Part shown: positions 12,772 through 40,018 of the stretch, in pieces
How the letters are laid out: every line of letters begins with the position of its first letter
Position numbering within the stretch: position 1 is the stretch's first letter
Origin: a virus
Reading direction: 5' to 3' (one strand)
DNA: 40,779 nucleotides
IMG/VR virus record: IMGVR_UViG_3300036715_000283
Span: 1-40,779 of that record
Notes under the pieces: model-generated
Told to the model about the DNA's origin: nothing
Database searches by the model: none
Seen by the model: only the letters and a program-made list of their open reading frames with translations
Program-made: the position numbers and the translations under genes

Positions 12772-13476
12772 ATGATTCAAATCAATTCCCAACCCGTTGA
12801 AAAGAAAGTTGTTTCAGACGGTCAGCAGTTAGATGTACATTCCATTTTTTATACAATACAAGGCGAAGGCCCATTTTGCGGTCAACCTGCTGTATTTATC
12901 CGTTTAGCAGGTTGTAATTTACAATGTCCAGGCTGCGATACAGATTACACAAGTAATCGTAAAGATGCACAAAGGATTAGTGATGTTGCGTCAGCTGTAA
13001 ACTGTTCTTATCCTTGCGGAACAAGCTGCAAATTAGTTGTCATTACAGGCGGAGAACCATTCCGCCAAAACATTACACCGCTTGTTCAAATGTTGCTGGA
13101 CTATGGTTATGAAGTGCAAGTTGAAACAAATGGTACACTTGCACCGTCACCAGACCTAAATTCAAGAACTTTTATAGTTTGTAGTCCAAAGGCTGGCAAA
13201 GTAAATTTTGAAATTGCTCAACGTGCAGTTTGCTTCAAGTATGTTATGAGCGCAAGAAGTGTAAACCCTATAGATGGTTTACCTATACTTGCGCTTGACC
13301 ACACAGCAAGTCCGCAAGTTGCGCGTCCGCCAGCTGGCAAAACTATCTACTTGCAACCAATGGACGAACAGCATGAAATGCAAAATGTTCTGAATTTAGC
13401 AGCAGTAAAAGAAAGTTGCATGGAGTTTGGATACACAATGCAATTACAAATTCACAAATTAATAGGTGTAGCATGA
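12772..13476 (+). CDS. queE: 7-carboxy-7-deazaguanine synthase (radical SAM)
   Basis: A 234-residue radical SAM enzyme converting 6-carboxy-tetrahydropterin to 7-carboxy-7-deazaguanine, the ring-contraction step of preQ0 synthesis. The [4Fe-4S] cluster motif CNLQCPGC gives CX3CX2C (Cys48, 52, 55). IQGEGPFCGQPAVFIRLAGC before it and ITGGEPF (about 91-97) after it are family hallmarks, as is VETNGT. RBS AGAGGTG precedes ATG 12772. First gene of a four-gene overlapping operon queE-queC-queD-folE; the stop overlaps queC by four bases. Confidence 0.95.
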   Translation: MIQINSQPVEKKVVSDGQQLDVHSIFYTIQGEGPFCGQPAVFIRLAGCNLQCPGCDTDYTSNRKDAQRISDVASAVNCSYPCGTSCKLVVITGGEPFRQNITPLVQMLLDYGYEVQVETNGTLAPSPDLNSRTFIVCSPKAGKVNFEIAQRAVCFKYVMSARSVNPIDGLPILALDHTASPQVARPPAGKTIYLQPMDEQHEMQNVLNLAAVKESCMEFGYTMQLQIHKLIGVA

Positions 13477-14258
13477 AAACTAAAGCTCTAGTAATATTGT
13501 CCGGTGGGCAAGATAGTACAACTTGCCTTTTTTGGGCAAAGCAAAATTACGATGAAGTACACGCAATTACTTTTGATTACGGTCAGCGTCACAGCATCGA
13601 AATAGATGCTGCTCGCAAGGTTGCGGAAATGGCTAGTGTAGCTAGTCATGAAGTTGTAGCAGTTCCAAATTGCTTAGTTTCGTCTAGTCCGCTAACAAGC
13701 AATAACGAACTTGAGAAATACGAAAATGCAGACCAAATGGAAACTGTTATTGGTGATCGCGTAGAACTTACGTTTGTCCCAATGCGCAACACATTCTTTT
13801 TTGTTGTCGCAATGAACCGCGCTGTGGCTTTGGATTGCCGTAACTTGGTAACAGGTATTTGCCAAGAAGACAATGCTAATTACCCTGACTGCACAGAATT
13901 GTTCCGCAACGAGTTTGAAAACATGGCAAATATTTCGCTTGGCATTAGCACCACAGCAAACGATGCGTTTAAAATCCATGCTCCGTTAATGAACATGACA
14001 AAAGGTCAAAGCGTTGTGCTTGCCACTATGTTAAAAGATTGCATGAAAGCTTTAGCGTATAGTCACACAAGCTATGACGGCAAATACCCGCCAACTGACA
14101 TGAACCATGCAAACGTGCTTCGCGCAAAAGGTTTTGAAAGTGTTGGTATTCCTGACCCTCTTGTGATGCGTGCTGTACGTGAGGGTTTAATGCAATATCC
14201 AAGAACAGACAATTATTCACAAGACACGCTTTTGCGCCGTGTGGGGTATCTGTTATGA
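13473..14258 (+). CDS. queC: 7-cyano-7-deazaguanine synthase, zinc-site variant
   Basis: A 261-residue enzyme that converts carboxydeazaguanine to preQ0 with ATP and ammonia. The PP-loop SGGQDST is at residues 10-16. FDYGQRH and the FVPMRNTFF and TGICQEDNANYPDC blocks are conserved. I place the start at ATG 13473, overlapping the queE stop; an upstream in-frame ATG at 13416 lies inside queE. The C-terminal tetra-cysteine zinc motif of classical QueC (CYNG...CGxCxxC) is absent: the aligned stretch reads SHTSYDGKYPPTDMNHANVL, without cysteine. This could mark a phage clade with a different structural site. The stop overlaps queD. Confidence 0.93.
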   Translation: MKTKALVILSGGQDSTTCLFWAKQNYDEVHAITFDYGQRHSIEIDAARKVAEMASVASHEVVAVPNCLVSSSPLTSNNELEKYENADQMETVIGDRVELTFVPMRNTFFFVVAMNRAVALDCRNLVTGICQEDNANYPDCTELFRNEFENMANISLGISTTANDAFKIHAPLMNMTKGQSVVLATMLKDCMKALAYSHTSYDGKYPPTDMNHANVLRAKGFESVGIPDPLVMRAVREGLMQYPRTDNYSQDTLLRRVGYLL

Positions 14259-14707
14259 CTTTCATATCCACTAAGACATACGGCCATGAAATTGGCCTAA
14301 GCTGTGCCTTTCGTCAGTGGAAAGCACATTCCCATTGCAGTAAAATTCACGGTTATGCTTTAGCTGTAAAGTTTCAGTTTCAAGCTGAAGAATTAGACAA
14401 TTGTGGTTGGGTCGTAGATTTCGGCAGTTTGAAGTCTTTAAAAGGTATGTTGGAAGATACTTTTGACCACAAACTATTAGTGTCCGAAGATGACCCGTAT
14501 AAAGACGAAATTTGCGCTTTAGCAGGTCTTGGTATTGCTGACGTAATTGTTGTCGAGCGTACAGGTTGCGAAGCATTTGCAAAACTAATTTATGAATGCG
14601 CCGAAGTGTGGTTAAAAGACAACGGTTACTCTCCACGCTGCGCTCTGCTGTGGGTTGAAGTTAGTGAACATGGTGCAAACAGTGCAATTTATATTGGAGA
14701 AGAATAA
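14255..14707 (+). CDS. queD: 6-carboxy-tetrahydropterin synthase
   Basis: A 150-residue enzyme making 6-carboxy-5,6,7,8-tetrahydropterin from dihydroneopterin triphosphate, the second preQ0 step. Metal-site region is FRQWKAHSHCSKIHGYAL (residues 19-36). The usual HGH pair is HGY here and the upstream AAH histidine is replaced, so the ligands are probably His25 or His27 and His32. Catalytic Cys28 is present. WVVDFGSLK and FDHKLL (about 69-73) with the acidic EDDP follow, and ERTGCEAFA near the end holds the family's 'T.E' region. It overlaps queC (ATGA) and folE (TAATG). Confidence 0.9.
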   Translation: MTFISTKTYGHEIGLSCAFRQWKAHSHCSKIHGYALAVKFQFQAEELDNCGWVVDFGSLKSLKGMLEDTFDHKLLVSEDDPYKDEICALAGLGIADVIVVERTGCEAFAKLIYECAEVWLKDNGYSPRCALLWVEVSEHGANSAIYIGEE

Positions 14708-15324
14708 TGCCACACAAAGACAGTACCTTATGTACACACTACTTAAATATGAATAAAGAATCTATAAACAGTATTCAGAGCGAAGTAATTTACGACTTAC
14801 TTGATGTTGTTATTGGTGAAAATGTGAAACGCGAAGGTTTGGCTGAAACCCCTGCACGTGTTGTAAAAGCCTGGCAAGAATGGACAGCAGGTTACAATGT
14901 TGACATTGCTGGTTTAATGAAAGTCTTTGAAGATGGAGCAGAAGGCTATGATGAAATGGTTATCGTTAAAGACATACCTATTTATAGTAAGTGTGAACAT
15001 CATCTTGCTGACATTTTTGGCACAGCAACCATTGCATATATTCCGAACGGTAAGGTTGTTGGCTTATCGAAACTCTCGCGTGTTGCGGACGTATTTGCAC
15101 GAAGATTGCAGGTTCAAGAAAGACTTACGGGTCAAATAGCTGATGCACTTGTAGAACACTTAAACCCGCTAGGTGTTGGTATTATCATTCGTGCCAGACA
15201 TATGTGCATGGAAAGTAGAGGGTTGTGCCAACAAGGGCATTACACAATTACCAGTGCTTTACGGGGCGTTCTTAAAACTGAACCTGCTGCTAGAGCGGAG
15301 TTTATGTTGTTAGCATCTAGTTAG
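14707..15324 (+). CDS. folE: GTP cyclohydrolase I
   Basis: A 205-residue enzyme converting GTP to dihydroneopterin triphosphate, the entry step shared by folate and 7-deazaguanine synthesis. Zinc ligands are visible: Cys96 and His99 in SKCEHHL, and Cys167 in RARHMCMESRG. GLSKLSRVADVFARRLQVQERLT and the closing TSALRGV are diagnostic. An alternative start at 14749 (MNKESIN) is possible, but the TAATG overlap with queD favours 14707. It supplies substrate for QueD, so the phage can make preQ0 from GTP on its own. A strong terminator follows at 15352. Confidence 0.95.
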   Translation: MPHKDSTLCTHYLNMNKESINSIQSEVIYDLLDVVIGENVKREGLAETPARVVKAWQEWTAGYNVDIAGLMKVFEDGAEGYDEMVIVKDIPIYSKCEHHLADIFGTATIAYIPNGKVVGLSKLSRVADVFARRLQVQERLTGQIADALVEHLNPLGVGIIIRARHMCMESRGLCQQGHYTITSALRGVLKTEPAARAEFMLLASS

Positions 15325-15351
15325 TGTAAACACGCTGTAAGCGTTTATAAT

Positions 15352-15390
15352 AAATGGGTACAGCGTAACACCTGTACCCATTTTAAATTT
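15352..15390 (+). terminator. Strong Rho-independent terminator after folE
   Basis: Stem AAATGGGTACAG (15352-15363) pairs perfectly with CTGTACCCATTT (15372-15383) around CGTAACAC, followed by TTAAATTT. It separates the preQ0 operon from dpdA. A TATAAT (15346-15351) just before the stem could be a -10 box, but I see no matching -35. Confidence 0.8.
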
Positions 15391-15421
15391 AACTAGCAAG
15401 CTATACGCAAGCACAAACACC

Positions 15422-16354
15422 ATGAATTTATTTTTAGCTGCTATATATACTAATAACTATATGAGAACACAAAATCGGTTTATTAAATTAACCGAAGGTG
15501 AGCAGCAGATTGTTACAAGCATCCCTCACATTCTTGAGAGCTATCACTACGTCAAAGGGCAACAGTATGTGGACACTATGCGCGAACAAGGTGCAAAAGT
15601 ATTTTTGGATTCGGGTGCATTCTCTGCGCATAGCCTTGGTGTCAATATCAGCATTGACGATTACTGCCAGTATATTATCCGGAATCGTGATATATTGCGG
15701 GTTGATGGTAATGCTGTTATGGCTTCTGTCCTTGACGGGATTGGAGATGCTTTAAAGACTTGGCAAAACCAACTTTACATGGAATCACAAGGCGCGACAC
15801 CGTTACCATGCTTCCACTATGGGGAAGATCCACAATATTTAGATTGGTATGTGCAAAGATACGAATACATCACAATTGGTGGATTGGTTGGCAAAGCGCA
15901 ACAGGACCAAGAAGTTTGGCTAGATCGTATGTGGAACGAACATATGATAGATGGTAGTGGTCGTGCTAAATTAAAAGTCCATGCTTTTGGTATGACTGCG
16001 CCAAGTTTAATGAAGCGTTACCCTTGGCACTCTGTCGATTCCTCATCATGGATTCAAGCTGCTGCATTCGGTTCTATTTTTACAAGTGAGCACGGCCCAT
16101 TGGCTGTATCTGATAAATCACCAAGCAGACACGATAAAGGTAGGCATTTAACCACACTAACCGAAGTCGAGCGTAATTCTGTCCAAGAGATGTTAGCACG
16201 CAAAGGTTTTAATTTTGAGCGTCTATCCACAGTTTACGAAAGCCGTGCGTGTTACAATACATTGGGTTACATGGAACTTAACGATTTAGTGAATGAAGAC
16301 ATCAAACGTAAAGGTGGCGTCTTTACCTGTCAAGAAATGCAACAATTATTTTAG
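15422..16354 (+). CDS. dpdA: DpdA-like DNA-guanine transglycosylase
   Basis: A 310-residue protein of the phage DpdA group, distant relatives of tRNA-guanine transglycosylase that swap guanine in DNA for a 7-deazaguanine base. FLDSGAFSAHS (residues 61-71) corresponds to the TGT 'DSGG(F/Y)Q' site with catalytic Asp63. ITIGGLVGK matches the TGT substrate-recognition glycine loop, and KVHAFGMTAPSLMKRYPWHSVDSSSW holds the second conserved Asp near the nucleophile position. The tRNA-type C-terminal CxCxxC zinc site is missing, as expected for DpdA. No clear Shine-Dalgarno precedes ATG 15422. Placed straight after the preQ0 operon, it very probably inserts preQ0 or a derivative into phage DNA to evade restriction. 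A TAACCACAC copy is at 16149. Confidence 0.85.
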   Translation: MNLFLAAIYTNNYMRTQNRFIKLTEGEQQIVTSIPHILESYHYVKGQQYVDTMREQGAKVFLDSGAFSAHSLGVNISIDDYCQYIIRNRDILRVDGNAVMASVLDGIGDALKTWQNQLYMESQGATPLPCFHYGEDPQYLDWYVQRYEYITIGGLVGKAQQDQEVWLDRMWNEHMIDGSGRAKLKVHAFGMTAPSLMKRYPWHSVDSSSWIQAAAFGSIFTSEHGPLAVSDKSPSRHDKGRHLTTLTEVERNSVQEMLARKGFNFERLSTVYESRACYNTLGYMELNDLVNEDIKRKGGVFTCQEMQQLF

Positions 16355-19648: not shown

Positions 19649-19837
19649 CTACCAGCGCAACCCAAACAGTTTATTTATTACCAAAGCAAGTACACTAATA
19701 AACATTCCCAACAAACCTGTAAACCATAAATGGAAATTCAGTATTGTTGGGAATTTCTCAGACCTATAATTCAAATACCAGCCGAAGAAGCAAGCTAGGG
19801 CAAATATTCCGAATTGGGTCACTTTCTTATAGTCCAA
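19649..19837 (-). CDS. Two-TM small membrane protein
   Basis: A 62-residue protein with two hydrophobic segments: FGIFALACFFGWYL (about 9-22) and LWFTGLLGMFISVLALVINKLFG (about 37-59), separated by a charged loop (NYRSEKFP). It overlaps the end of the papain-like gene by 19 bases and is the last gene of the - strand lysis block, facing the end of the polymerase gene 51 bases away. It could be a holin or antiholin component, or a membrane partner of the protease. No family is recognised. Confidence 0.6.
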   Translation of the reverse strand: MDYKKVTQFGIFALACFFGWYLNYRSEKFPTILNFHLWFTGLLGMFISVLALVINKLFGLRW

Positions 19838-20541
19838 AAGTCGTCTGATAATTTGCGAGTAAGGTAATCAAATGGAAGTGTGAAGTAACCTTTTTGCCCC
19901 CATTGATCGCCCCACGAATTGCGTACAAGAATCCGCCGATTTATTTTGTCGTAGCCAACTGCCATAACAGCATGACCGCCTAATGCCTTCTCTTTTGCGG
20001 TAGGCATGTTGACTATGCCAGTTTTTGCCACATCTGCACTCTCAAAACCTTCGTAGACAGTAAATCCAAATACAAAGGGAAATCCAGCAGCCAGACATTG
20101 CAGCATATCGTCTAGCGTGGTTAATCTCTGATAGCTTGAAATAGTTGTTTTCGCAGCCTCTTTGTAGCTTTTTGCAGATGGCTTAGATTTAAATTTTGCA
20201 ATGTTATATGGCCATGTTAGTTCAGTACATACACCAAGGTTAGCAATCGACTTAATACCATCGCGTATCATTGCGCCAGCATCTTGCTTGATTGTACCTT
20301 CAATAGATCGCTCATTAAAGTAAATGAATAGCCGAGAGAATGCTACGCTAACAGAGTGGATAAATCCCATTGCGCCTGCAAGTGCATTGCCAGTACACGA
20401 CCCCAATTGCCCTTGATCGACAATAGTAGGGCATTTATCTCGTAGATCAACTACATCCGGTATTGGTGAGCCAGTATGCATAAATATATGATCTCGATGA
20501 TCTGGCAAATCCGGCTTCCAAGTATATTTTTTAGTGTTCAT
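19819..20541 (-). CDS. Papain-family (C1A) cysteine protease
   Basis: A 240-residue peptidase with the complete C1A active site. Oxyanion Gln43 or Gln45 and nucleophile Cys49 are in DQGQLGSCTGNAL, catalytic His190 is in LGGHAVMAVGYD, and Asn208 is in RNSWGDQWG. The lead-in WKPDLPDHRD and VDLRDKCP is typical of bacterial and viral C1A proteins without a propeptide. No signal peptide is evident, so it may act in the cytoplasm, be carried in the virion, or reach the envelope after holin triggering. It overlaps the Rz gene by four bases. Papain-like proteases are uncommon in phage lysis blocks; role unknown. Confidence 0.85.
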   Translation of the reverse strand: MNTKKYTWKPDLPDHRDHIFMHTGSPIPDVVDLRDKCPTIVDQGQLGSCTGNALAGAMGFIHSVSVAFSRLFIYFNERSIEGTIKQDAGAMIRDGIKSIANLGVCTELTWPYNIAKFKSKPSAKSYKEAAKTTISSYQRLTTLDDMLQCLAAGFPFVFGFTVYEGFESADVAKTGIVNMPTAKEKALGGHAVMAVGYDKINRRILVRNSWGDQWGQKGYFTLPFDYLTRKLSDDFWTIRK

Positions 20542-36352: not shown

Positions 36353-36880
36353 TTATGTTCTAGTTAGCTTTACCATAGCCCCATTTCCACTATTTTTAAG
36401 ATAAACTTTAAGCATTGCGTCAATTTGAGGGAATATTGTTCTTTGCTTTGTATTTATATCATATTTGATTTTTACAGGACCTACGCCTTCTTCCAGCGTA
36501 CCTCTTTCTTGATCAGATAAAAGTTCACCAGCAGCAGCACGTAACGCAAGTTCTATACAAGCATTTTTAACTTCGTTTGGGACAATAGTATAAGAAACTA
36601 CAATATACCCATAAGAATTAAAGTGACCATCATTTGTAACCACACTATTACGAGGCCAGTCTAGTGCCTGTGTAGTTGTTACTCTATAACCTAACCAGCG
36701 CCCACGGTATTCTCCCATCATATAATCAGTAGCTCTACGCAAAGCTTGTTCTTTTTGTAAAGTTGAAATTGTGGGCCAAGTATCGTTGCCCCTATTTGCT
36801 TGGTATGTATCTGCATCTGTAACGGATGCGTACGACTCCGCTGTACTATCGCCAGTTCCTGTTTCAGTTATAAGGCTCAT
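36353..36880 (-). CDS. Head-tail adaptor (DnaT-like) protein
   Basis: A 175-residue protein. Its beginning ITETGTGDSTAESYASVTDADTYQANRGNDTWPT and EQALRRATDYMMGEYRGRWLGYRV are typical of the 'putative DnaT-like' head-tail connector family. VPNEVKNACIELALRAAAGEL and the closing VGPVKIKYD also fit. It should form a ring below the portal. Contains TAACCACAC at 36637, coding Val-Val on its own strand. Stop of the repeat protein overlaps its start (ATGA). Confidence 0.75.
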   Translation of the reverse strand: MSLITETGTGDSTAESYASVTDADTYQANRGNDTWPTISTLQKEQALRRATDYMMGEYRGRWLGYRVTTTQALDWPRNSVVTNDGHFNSYGYIVVSYTIVPNEVKNACIELALRAAAGELLSDQERGTLEEGVGPVKIKYDINTKQRTIFPQIDAMLKVYLKNSGNGAMVKLTRT

Positions 36881-38511
36881 GGATAGCTCCTAGTTGTGGT
36901 TATTGGATAAGCTTGCACTATACCATATAAAGGTTCTACAGTGCTTGTTCCAAATAGAGGATAGTGCATTAAAACGCTGTCTAAAATATAACTTCTATTT
37001 ATTCCTGCTAATGGGTACTCACCGCTAATACCACTAGCAAACCAGAAATAATCCGAACTGTCTGTTAGTGTAGCAGCTTCGGTAATAGTTGTGCTATGAA
37101 TTGTTGGTACTATTGCAGAACTAGAATGTACTGCTACTAAAGCTTCTGTTAACGCAGATACGTATAAAGAACTTCCTAAAATACTATCTAAAACTATAGA
37201 ACTTTCAAGTATTGCATTTAAAAACACAACTGTTGAGGTAATGTTATCAGTACTTGTTGCAGCTTCTGTAAGGCTACCAACTGTTGTCTTAAGACCTATA
37301 TTTGTTTCTGCAAGTATACCACTTTCTGTAATTATAGAAGTAAATCCATTTGAAGCTAAGGAAGATTCTAAACTTGTTATTGGTTCAGTTATAGCTGAAC
37401 CTATTGCATTGCCTGCAACACTACTTTCTATAGCTATGTTTGCTTCTGTAATTGCAGCAACAGCTTGCATTGTGCTAACCACACTATCCGACGCAGTTGT
37501 GCTTTCGGTTATTGTGGCGCTATTAGAACCGTTAAAGTCGCTTGTTTCAGCTGCTGTAGTAGCTTCCGTAACTGTTATCTGTGCAACCATACTACTAACT
37601 AAAGAGTCGTTTCCTGTTGCAGCTTCTGTTAAACTACTTAGTGCAACAAAAGTAGATACACTTGACTCCATTAATGCACCAGATTCTGTCTGGCTTACAA
37701 TAAATGCTTGTGTTACTGTAAATGTTTCTGCTAATATACCAGATTCAGTTATTATGGCATTATTAGATGCGCCTTGGAAGCTGCTATCTATAGCACTACT
37801 AGATTCTGTAATAGTTACAGCATTAATAGCAGTTGATAAAATACTATCGCTTGCGCTGCCTGTTTCGTTAATTGCGCTCGAAGCAACAAAGTTAGAAATA
37901 ATACTGTCGTTACTTGATATAGATTCAGTTAACAATGACGCAAAACTAGCAGTAACTACAATTGAATCTGCAGAAGTAGAAGCTTCTGTAATTGCTGTAT
38001 TATTAGACGCACCCTGAGTTGAAATATCTGTTGCTGTAGTAGCTTCTGTAATAGTTACCACACCAATAAATAAGGAAGACGATATGTCCGAAGGTATAGT
38101 AGGTTCAGTTAGTGTAGTTACAGCAATAGACGCAATAGCTATAGAATCTAAAGACGTTACAGGTTCTGTTATTATGCTAGAAAATAATGCTGTTGCGGAA
38201 ATGCTATTATTAGCTGTAGCAGGTTCAGTAATGCTACTAACTATTGAAAGTAAGCCCGCAGAGCTATCTACGGCGCTGGTGGATTCCGTTGCGGAAACAC
38301 TACCAATAAGTTGCGAAGCAATACTATCGGTAAGTGCTGCTGCTTCACTTATATTTAAAAGTAAGATAGCTACAGCAGTTGATATTTCGGAAAGTGTGCC
38401 TGCTTCCGTAATACCAACGTTGTGAACTATTCCACCTGCCGAAACAGCTGTATCAAGTTGAAGCCAAGTTACCTTAGCGTCAACTTGACCGAGCAGTAGC
38501 AGCAGGGACAT
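36877..38511 (-). CDS. Virion protein with about 23 twenty-residue repeats
   Basis: A 544-residue protein. Residues about 32-487 consist of some 23 units of 19-21 residues, each opening with [IL]-T-E-[ASP] followed by a small-residue turn and D/E-S-[IS], for example TITEATTATDIS and SLTEAATGNDSLVSS. Such short regular units rich in Ile, Thr, Ser and Ala suggest a beta-solenoid or an extended fibre. The tail (from about 488) has three YPLxG/PLYG motifs. It has no signal peptide. Genes with such TE-D repeats occur among phage structural genes, and location beside head-tail connectors suggests a head or neck appendage. Function unknown. Confidence 0.65.
   Translation of the reverse strand: MSLLLLLGQVDAKVTWLQLDTAVSAGGIVHNVGITEAGTLSEISTAVAILLLNISEAAALTDSIASQLIGSVSATESTSAVDSSAGLLSIVSSITEPATANNSISATALFSSIITEPVTSLDSIAIASIAVTTLTEPTIPSDISSSLFIGVVTITEATTATDISTQGASNNTAITEASTSADSIVVTASFASLLTESISSNDSIISNFVASSAINETGSASDSILSTAINAVTITESSSAIDSSFQGASNNAIITESGILAETFTVTQAFIVSQTESGALMESSVSTFVALSSLTEAATGNDSLVSSMVAQITVTEATTAAETSDFNGSNSATITESTTASDSVVSTMQAVAAITEANIAIESSVAGNAIGSAITEPITSLESSLASNGFTSIITESGILAETNIGLKTTVGSLTEAATSTDNITSTVVFLNAILESSIVLDSILGSSLYVSALTEALVAVHSSSAIVPTIHSTTITEAATLTDSSDYFWFASGISGEYPLAGINRSYILDSVLMHYPLFGTSTVEPLYGIVQAYPITTTRSYP
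37051..38418. repeat. About 23 imperfect 60-bp coding repeats
   Basis: The + strand shows recurring GCTTCTGTAA, GATTCTGT or GGTTCAGTTA blocks every 57-63 bases (complement of codons for T-E-A, T-E-S and T-E-P). Units differ by point changes and keep frame, so they are old, diverged repeats under protein-level selection, not a CRISPR array. Confidence 0.85.
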
Positions 38512-38515
38512 CTAG

Positions 38516-40018
38516 TTACTCCCATCCGAATACAGGCGTAACTCGATGCACTACGGTTCCGCTTGTACCTACAGTACCTATATGCCTAGTACAAAGTTGG
38601 ATAAACTCGCCCGGATTAACGTATAAAGGTGCGTCACCAAGGTCTACAAATTGGGTCAGCTGATTCACAAACGTATTGACCGCTTGTGCCGCAGTAACTA
38701 GCTGAGTAATAGGTAGCGCCATGCGTCTAGGTGCTTTTGTCGCTGCCCCTTCTGTTGTAGCTAATGAAACAGCCGTGTGACCAAAAGCTAGAAAGTATTC
38801 AGCTTGATAGGGACCACCAACGATAACGGTTTGCACATAGCTAGACAAGTAGAGACCACGAAGCACTAACCGTTTGCCTGGAATATTTACTGTTCCAGCG
38901 GGAACCTGATACGACATGATGATTGCATCTGTGTTGACCGCTAAAGAGACTGTCTCCCAGAATGTACCACCCAAGCCAGAGCCTAGTGCAGCAGTAGTCG
39001 TGGTAGGTACAGCAGCAGTGACGTTGGTTTCGTTACCTGTCGTAATTGTACCAACTCTAGCTAAAGACCCTAGCGTACCACCTTGCATACCCTGATAGCT
39101 TCCAAGTATGCGATTACCTTGCGTGCTTGCCGTAGTTGAAATATTTGAACCCCCGATCCGCACGTTGTACGAATTGACTAGACATTGAAGTACACCACCA
39201 GCAGCGCCGCCTGTAATTCTATGTTTTATTGTAAGGGGTAACGCTGAAGCCATACATACACGCCCAACACCCGCAGGCAATATAATAGAACCTAGACAGT
39301 ACGCGCCAAGTATCCCATCATTAACCCAGAACCGAGCCTCTGTAGCTGATGTATATACAATGAACTGATAACGCTTGGAATTCGTGTAAGCCCATGTACC
39401 AGTGCCTCCGGTAAGTGGGAATATACCTGTCGATACCTCAGTACCGTTATTTGAAGCAATGCCTTGCAGACCTGCGGAACTTAATCGAAAGAACACTCCA
39501 TCAGTTGGCGCAGTAGTTGCTGTTCCCGGCAAGCATGGGCCAAATTCAATGAAACTATTAGCTTGTGGTTGAGCAGAAAAAGCCAGTTCAAAATCACAAG
39601 CTAATGTTTGTGTTCCCACTAGTGGAAAAAATGCATAGGTTTGTAAAAATGTTCCAGTGGTTGTAGTAGTAATCGAAGAACTATTGGTTGTCATTTGCCC
39701 TGCTGCCCAACTGTTCGTCATTGTTGTAGTTATATGCTGATGCTTACCTGTATCCTGTGCCGTGTAATTAAATACAACGTCATCAAGCACTAAGTCTTGG
39801 CTTACGCGCTGGCGATAATCTGAGTCCGTCTCTGCTGATAGTAGCAACGGAATACCCGTAGCGTATCCCATATCGGATTCCGCAAATGAGCGATAACCCC
39901 CGATGTTAGCTGAACCAGTCAATGAATTAGTTTCAGTGATGACTTTAGCCAATCCACCTGTAACTACCTCTTGTGCTATGCCTGAAATAGCGCCTTTTAA
40001 GTTTGTATCGAGAGCCAT
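38516..40018 (-). CDS. Conserved phage virion surface protein
   Basis: A 500-residue beta-rich protein. The start LKGAISGIAQEVVTGGLAKVITETNSLTGSANIGGYRSFAES leads to a lectin-like middle part (CDFELAFSAQPQANSFIEFGPCLPG, RYQFIVYTSATEARFWVNDGILG). The last 130 residues (VNIPGKRLVLRGLYLSSYVQTVIVGGPYQAEYFLAFGHTAVSL ... DAPLYVNPGEFIQLCTRHIGT ... VTPVFGWE) match a widespread phage structural protein ending in P-[VI]-[FY]-GWE. Probably a head decoration or fibre component. AGAGGT precedes ATG 40018. Confidence 0.65.
   Translation of the reverse strand: MALDTNLKGAISGIAQEVVTGGLAKVITETNSLTGSANIGGYRSFAESDMGYATGIPLLLSAETDSDYRQRVSQDLVLDDVVFNYTAQDTGKHQHITTTMTNSWAAGQMTTNSSSITTTTTGTFLQTYAFFPLVGTQTLACDFELAFSAQPQANSFIEFGPCLPGTATTAPTDGVFFRLSSAGLQGIASNNGTEVSTGIFPLTGGTGTWAYTNSKRYQFIVYTSATEARFWVNDGILGAYCLGSIILPAGVGRVCMASALPLTIKHRITGGAAGGVLQCLVNSYNVRIGGSNISTTASTQGNRILGSYQGMQGGTLGSLARVGTITTGNETNVTAAVPTTTTAALGSGLGGTFWETVSLAVNTDAIIMSYQVPAGTVNIPGKRLVLRGLYLSSYVQTVIVGGPYQAEYFLAFGHTAVSLATTEGAATKAPRRMALPITQLVTAAQAVNTFVNQLTQFVDLGDAPLYVNPGEFIQLCTRHIGTVGTSGTVVHRVTPVFGWE

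Follow-up and report, generated by a model that had tools for sequence, protein, structure and literature searches.

The locus at positions 12772 to 16354 of this virus raises the question of whether a phage could make preQ0 from GTP with its own enzymes and insert it into its own DNA, and of whether preQ0 would then be the final base. The stretch analysed, here called the window, spans the entire virus record, which is linear and 40,779 bases long. A sequence-only reading had proposed five adjacent and intact genes, the first four of them overlapping, and had named preQ0 as the base inserted. The five genes are indeed present, with frames free of stops, and the matches that name them lie well outside what chance would give:

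12772-13476, plus strand: QueE-like radical SAM 7-carboxy-7-deazaguanine synthase (234 aa; phrog_2076, E 5.7e-66)
13473-14258, plus strand: QueC-like preQ0 synthase, a variant without zinc ligands (261 aa; PF06508, E 9.2e-51)
14255-14707, plus strand: QueD-like 6-carboxytetrahydropterin synthase, HGY variant (150 aa; phrog_2389, E 1.7e-40)
14707-15324, plus strand: FolE, GTP cyclohydrolase I (205 aa; PF01227, E 3.1e-66)
15422-16354, plus strand: DpdA, a phage TGT-like enzyme exchanging guanine for 7-deazaguanine in DNA (310 aa; phrog_887, E 3.1e-81)

Successive overlaps of 4, 4 and 1 nt join QueE, QueC, QueD and FolE, and 97 bp separate FolE from DpdA. The genes are intact in the sense that their frames are open; in QueC and QueD the canonical zinc ligands are lacking.

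The QueE-like protein keeps the CX3CX2C cluster motif (CNLQCPGC) and matches the QueE models of NCBIfam at E 8e-28, under their cut-off. QueC reaches 162 bits with TIGR00364 (NCBIfam cut-off 150), QueD matches the Pfam PTPS family (E 2.3e-18), and FolE keeps the zinc motifs CEHH and HMCMESRG. Neither Pfam nor NCBIfam models matched DpdA, which is 62.9% identical to the CAjan protein over 283 aa and 58.1% identical to that of Iggy over 310 aa. The conserved His 196 of 9g DpdA is a mark of the phage enzyme and is missing in DpdA2; its counterpart in the window is H187, which is invariant in our alignment and pairs with residue 196 of JenP1 DpdA, if 9g and JenP1 share the same numbering. The cassette has both the DpdA and the full FolE/QueD/QueE/QueC set of group 2 of Hutinet 2019 (PMC6884629).

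The genetic setting is that of a known type of phage. Genes for a primase, a MazG-like protein, a ligase, Sak4, SSB, a Cas4-type exonuclease and a helicase lie 5' of the cassette, whereas 3' of it, and co-oriented with dpdA, are the sliding clamp and DNA polymerase genes, followed by a convergent tail and head module. This arrangement recurs in uncultured relatives and in cultured Queuovirinae, and the order QueE-QueC-QueD-FolE-DpdA, then clamp and PolB, is common to HD01, Iggy and many of the uncultured relatives. Those that are similarly arranged measure 62-74 kb, and the record is probably incomplete, by perhaps 20-30 kb; judged against these relatives, it probably lacks the early genes on the left and the head and packaging genes on the right. 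As the record is linear, the lack of a gene in the window means little by itself.

Cultured phages offer several points of comparison. Iggy (NC_070970, Iggyvirus, Queuovirinae; GC 57%, known host Pseudomonas aeruginosa) matches the window in the five genes, their order and their clamp and PolB neighbours, and also has a QueC without zinc ligands (54% identity), an HGY-type QueD (56%) and no Gat; it differs in having extra small ORFs within the cluster and a DpdA that is 58% identical. Acinetobacter phage HD01 (PQ437329; 56.8-kb genome) shares the compact gene order, with a zinc-less QueC (62%), an HGY QueD (55%) and a DpdA at 63% identity, and no modification of its DNA is reported in the literature that we searched. 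Escherichia phage CAjan (NC_028776, Seuratvirus) likewise encodes FolE, QueD, QueE, QueC and DpdA without an amidotransferase, as expected of group 2, but its QueC is the four-cysteine zinc form (with CGECPAC in the zinc motif; 35% identity), its QueD has the canonical HGH (25% identity), and its cluster also holds a putative preQ0 transporter and other ORFs. Finally, 9g and JenP1 (Escherichia, Nonagvirus) and PaMx25 (Nipunavirus) resemble the window in FolE, QueD, QueE, neighbourhood and DpdA (58-61% identity), but encode QueC as a Gat-QueC fusion (about 466-487 aa), predicted or shown to lead to dG+, whose Gat half is lacking in the window protein.

We consider it very probable that the window comes from an uncultured Queuovirinae-like siphophage and carries its dPreQ0 DNA-modification cassette, in which DpdA inserts preQ0 as the final base. 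FolE would convert host GTP to dihydroneopterin triphosphate, from which QueD would make carboxytetrahydropterin, QueE 7-carboxy-7-deazaguanine, and QueC preQ0 (7-cyano-7-deazaguanine); DpdA would then excise selected guanines of the phage DNA and insert preQ0, leaving dPreQ0 as the final base. Restriction enzymes of the host would cut DNA bearing dPreQ0 poorly. The sequences show which genes are present, their order and integrity, their homology, the state of their motifs and the lack of QueF, Gat and ArcS in this and related records; what the enzymes do, which base results, which motif is targeted and whether the DNA is protected are things that we infer, with the insertion of the base by DpdA and its effect on restriction carried over from CAjan; a shield against many restriction enzymes would be expected by analogy with the relatives. 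In a plasmid test, 9g DpdA alone gave dPreQ0 at 0.3% of G and no resistance to EcoRI (PMC6884629). A use of the cassette to boost preQ0 for host tRNA queuosine or another purpose, as suggested for phages that have preQ0 genes and no DpdA (PMC6884629), is scarcely credible here, where a DpdA distinct from tRNA TGT and 63% identical to that of CAjan, whose deletion abolishes DNA modification, lies immediately 3' of the pathway genes.

Three lines of evidence bear on which base is inserted. First, preQ0-processing enzymes of three classes have been described for systems of this type, namely QueF or QueF-L, ArcS, and the Gat-QueC fusion (PMC6884629). The sequence-only reading had noted no gene of the QueF, Gat or ArcS type in the window, and model searches of the window and of 14 relatives, among which six measure 69-95 kb, agree with this. 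Archaeal controls were detected in the ArcS search. Absence of ArcS, QueF, QueF-L and Gat-QueC also belongs to the Hutinet 2019 definition (PMC6884629), and none is found in the 14 relatives or in the window, which is probably an incomplete genome. Two candidates in the window were discarded: the Pfam and NCBIfam QueF hits are cross-matches of FolE at the FolE locus, and phrog_10428 aligns through its QueC half alone (profile positions 244-424 of 476). The window QueC carries no fused glutamine amidotransferase domain, unlike the Gat-QueC of dG+-type cassettes. Second, a tree built from 74 DpdA proteins of phages places the window enzyme in a clade of 15 (SH-aLRT 98), none of whose members has Gat-QueC. 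Third, CAjan and Rosebush, which have the same gene set without an amidotransferase, contain dPreQ0 at about 32% and 28% of G, respectively, and in CAjan the base is gone when dpdA is deleted (PMC6884629). The gene set, the lack of any modifying enzyme in the searches and the measured relatives together predict dPreQ0, which, by this analogy, is the best-supported product and agrees with what was first proposed.

It is quite improbable that the final base is instead dG+ or dPreQ1, made by an amidotransferase or reductase whose gene lies beyond the ends of the record. The length of the linear record, 40.8 kb against 62-74 kb in related contigs, leaves room for such a gene, and the cluster of Sphingomonas phage MMDA13, whose QueC is 60% identical to that of the window, includes a 98-aa protein annotated as QueF-like. 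However, known genes of this kind lie in or beside the cluster, a region wholly covered in the window, the missing regions correspond to early and head/packaging genes in relatives, and the 14 relatives without QueF, Gat or ArcS are mostly longer than the window.

In QueC the cassette departs from the canonical set. Canonical QueC (PF06508 cluster 1) has the motifs SGGxDS, YxQxHxxE, VPxRN and YPDC, the zinc motif C(x)8CxxCxxC and, in the region of that motif, an essential Tyr (PMC13329287). The window protein keeps SGGQDS, YGQRHSIE, VPMRN, YPDC and the essential Tyr (of TSY), which cover the ATP loop and the motifs that mutagenesis tied to the substrate, and its AF2 model finds B. subtilis QueC (3bl5) as best match. 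It has none of the four cysteines, with TSYDGKYPPTDMNHANVLR in their place; the region of the zinc motif reads HTSYDGKYPPTDMNHANVLR, while the nearest zinc-bearing forms, from Desulfovibrio, read HTCYAGVFPPCGKCHSCVLR, and all four Cys are swapped in place when the Desulfovibrio sequence HTCYAGVFPPCGKCHSC is taken as reference. Because C(x)8CxxCxxC is missing, we class the protein as a QueC-like variant and not as a canonical QueC.

The variant is conserved across many phages. It is also the sole full-length QueC match that we found in Brackiella oedipodis and in four bacterial metagenome-assembled genomes, all five of which also encode TGT and QueF, and on this ground zinc-less QueC is probably active. 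As for its origin, a single loss of zinc was disfavoured by a quick QueC tree built without the zinc loop (p-AU 0.015), and several losses or one regain are possible histories of these sequences. Two relatives (L012 and L013) have no QueC at the usual place; both encode a very divergent, four-cysteine QueC-like protein immediately upstream of DpdA (244 aa, at 3587-4321 in L013).

QueD shows a parallel change. The motif of QueD, which defines PTPS-I, is CxxxHGH (PMC5041015), and the window protein reads CSKIHGY: Phe19 replaces the first zinc His and HGH has become H32-G-Y34, so that two of the three zinc histidines are lost. The catalytic residues C28, D71-H72 and E138 are kept and are invariant in 16 relatives, and the T-fold is predicted with confidence (AF2 pLDDT 92.7; Foldseek match to E. 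coli QueD 4ntk, E 1.6e-8). HGY QueD is conserved across many phages as well, and the evidence from cellular genomes is thinner than for zinc-less QueC. In two bacterial genomes the HGY protein accompanies a canonical QueD, the latter beside QueC; in one small bacterial genome it adjoins FolE and is the sole PTPS-family protein found. From the phylum of Brackiella, 299 genomes were sampled, and 3 of them have a QueD relative of the HGY type on the chromosome: L129 (7959-8495, minus strand), L130 (7936-8997, minus strand) and L131 (7582-8061, plus strand).

These losses are what gives weight to the idea that zinc-less QueC is half-active or inactive, with ADG or CDG building up and DpdA inserting dADG or dCDG, or else preQ0 from the host. 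The lost C(x)8CxxCxxC has been described as a hallmark of preQ0-making QueC, the enzyme acts via an ADG intermediate, and QueD is short of two zinc His. We nevertheless regard this as highly improbable, since no substrate or ATP motif has been lost, the Tyr of proven importance is in place, the variant is conserved across many phages, and no other QueC was found in the bacterial genomes that encode TGT and QueF beside it. A further argument comes from Pseudomonas phage Iggy, which has the same variant and is reported to be dPreQ0-modified at GA (title of Olsen 2023, as cited in PMC11008142).

The cells that Iggy-type phages usually infect, P. aeruginosa among them, produce preQ0 themselves, and the dPreQ0 of Iggy is therefore no proof that the phage enzymes work. 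The literature that we searched, with incomplete coverage, contained no description of zinc-less QueC as active and no assay of it or of HGY QueD. Given that QueC and QueD both lack the canonical zinc ligands, the self-sufficiency of the cassette is something that we infer. To return to the dPreQ0 cassette, its type is already known, namely the Queuovirinae-type dPreQ0 anti-restriction system, proven in CAjan and reported for Iggy, and the window adds an uncultured member to it. A wider reading is that a widespread QueC subfamily, present in phages and the sole QueC seen in some bacterial genomes, can form preQ0 with no four-cysteine zinc site, in many phages alongside a QueD short of two of its three zinc His, such that large parts of the pathway may be independent of zinc or use another metal; we see the chances of this as evenly balanced. 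The sequences are evidence that QueC, and probably QueD too, can lose the zinc ligands used for recognition. If true, such losses would bear on annotation rules, on mechanistic models of QueC and on ideas about metal limitation.

We also looked at dinucleotide usage. GA/TC at codon junctions, relative to synonymous shuffling, is 0.74 in the window, 0.67 in Iggy and 0.72 in HD01, equally depleted on both strands in all three, and the values range over 0.61-0.74 when the relatives L018, L022 and L013 are included. Values below 0.80 occur in 13% of 61 random viral contigs. Among DpdA phages, those without Gat have a lower ratio than those with it (p 7e-6, uncorrected), a difference that is not significant in a tree-aware comparison, which leaves 3 independent pairs. 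In view of this and of the overlap with random contigs, we dropped the depletion as a footprint of DpdA targets and retain it as a hint only of a link to DpdA.

The gap between FolE and DpdA holds one further feature:

15352-15383, plus strand: perfect 12-bp hairpin with an 8-nt loop and a U-containing tail

The 97-nt gap has a fold z of -3.2, and an alternative 17-nt inverted repeat (15332-15366) overlaps the hairpin. A riboswitch was considered and rejected, as the gap has no match in Rfam and the hairpin is mostly private to the window phage: a scan of 16 viral relatives found 14 without a comparable one. From its sequence the hairpin is a possible terminator or attenuator and may limit read-through into dpdA.

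Some relatives have additional genes in the cassette region. In two of them (L003, 10939-12144; L014, 10937-12124) dpdA is directly followed by a gene for an RtcB RNA ligase (PF01139, E about 1e-129), which is missing from the window, and a GIY-YIG endonuclease-like ORF lies between QueE and QueC in another (L006, 6328-7035). Outside the cassette, two ORFs of 544 and 500 aa adjoin the head-tail adaptor gene of the window (36877-38511 and 38516-40018, both on the minus strand), neither of them matched in PHROG or Pfam, and relatives have ORFs of widely differing length at the same site. At the end of the tail/lysis module, the window encodes a papain-family C1 peptidase (19819-20541, minus strand; PF00112, E 1.2e-16).
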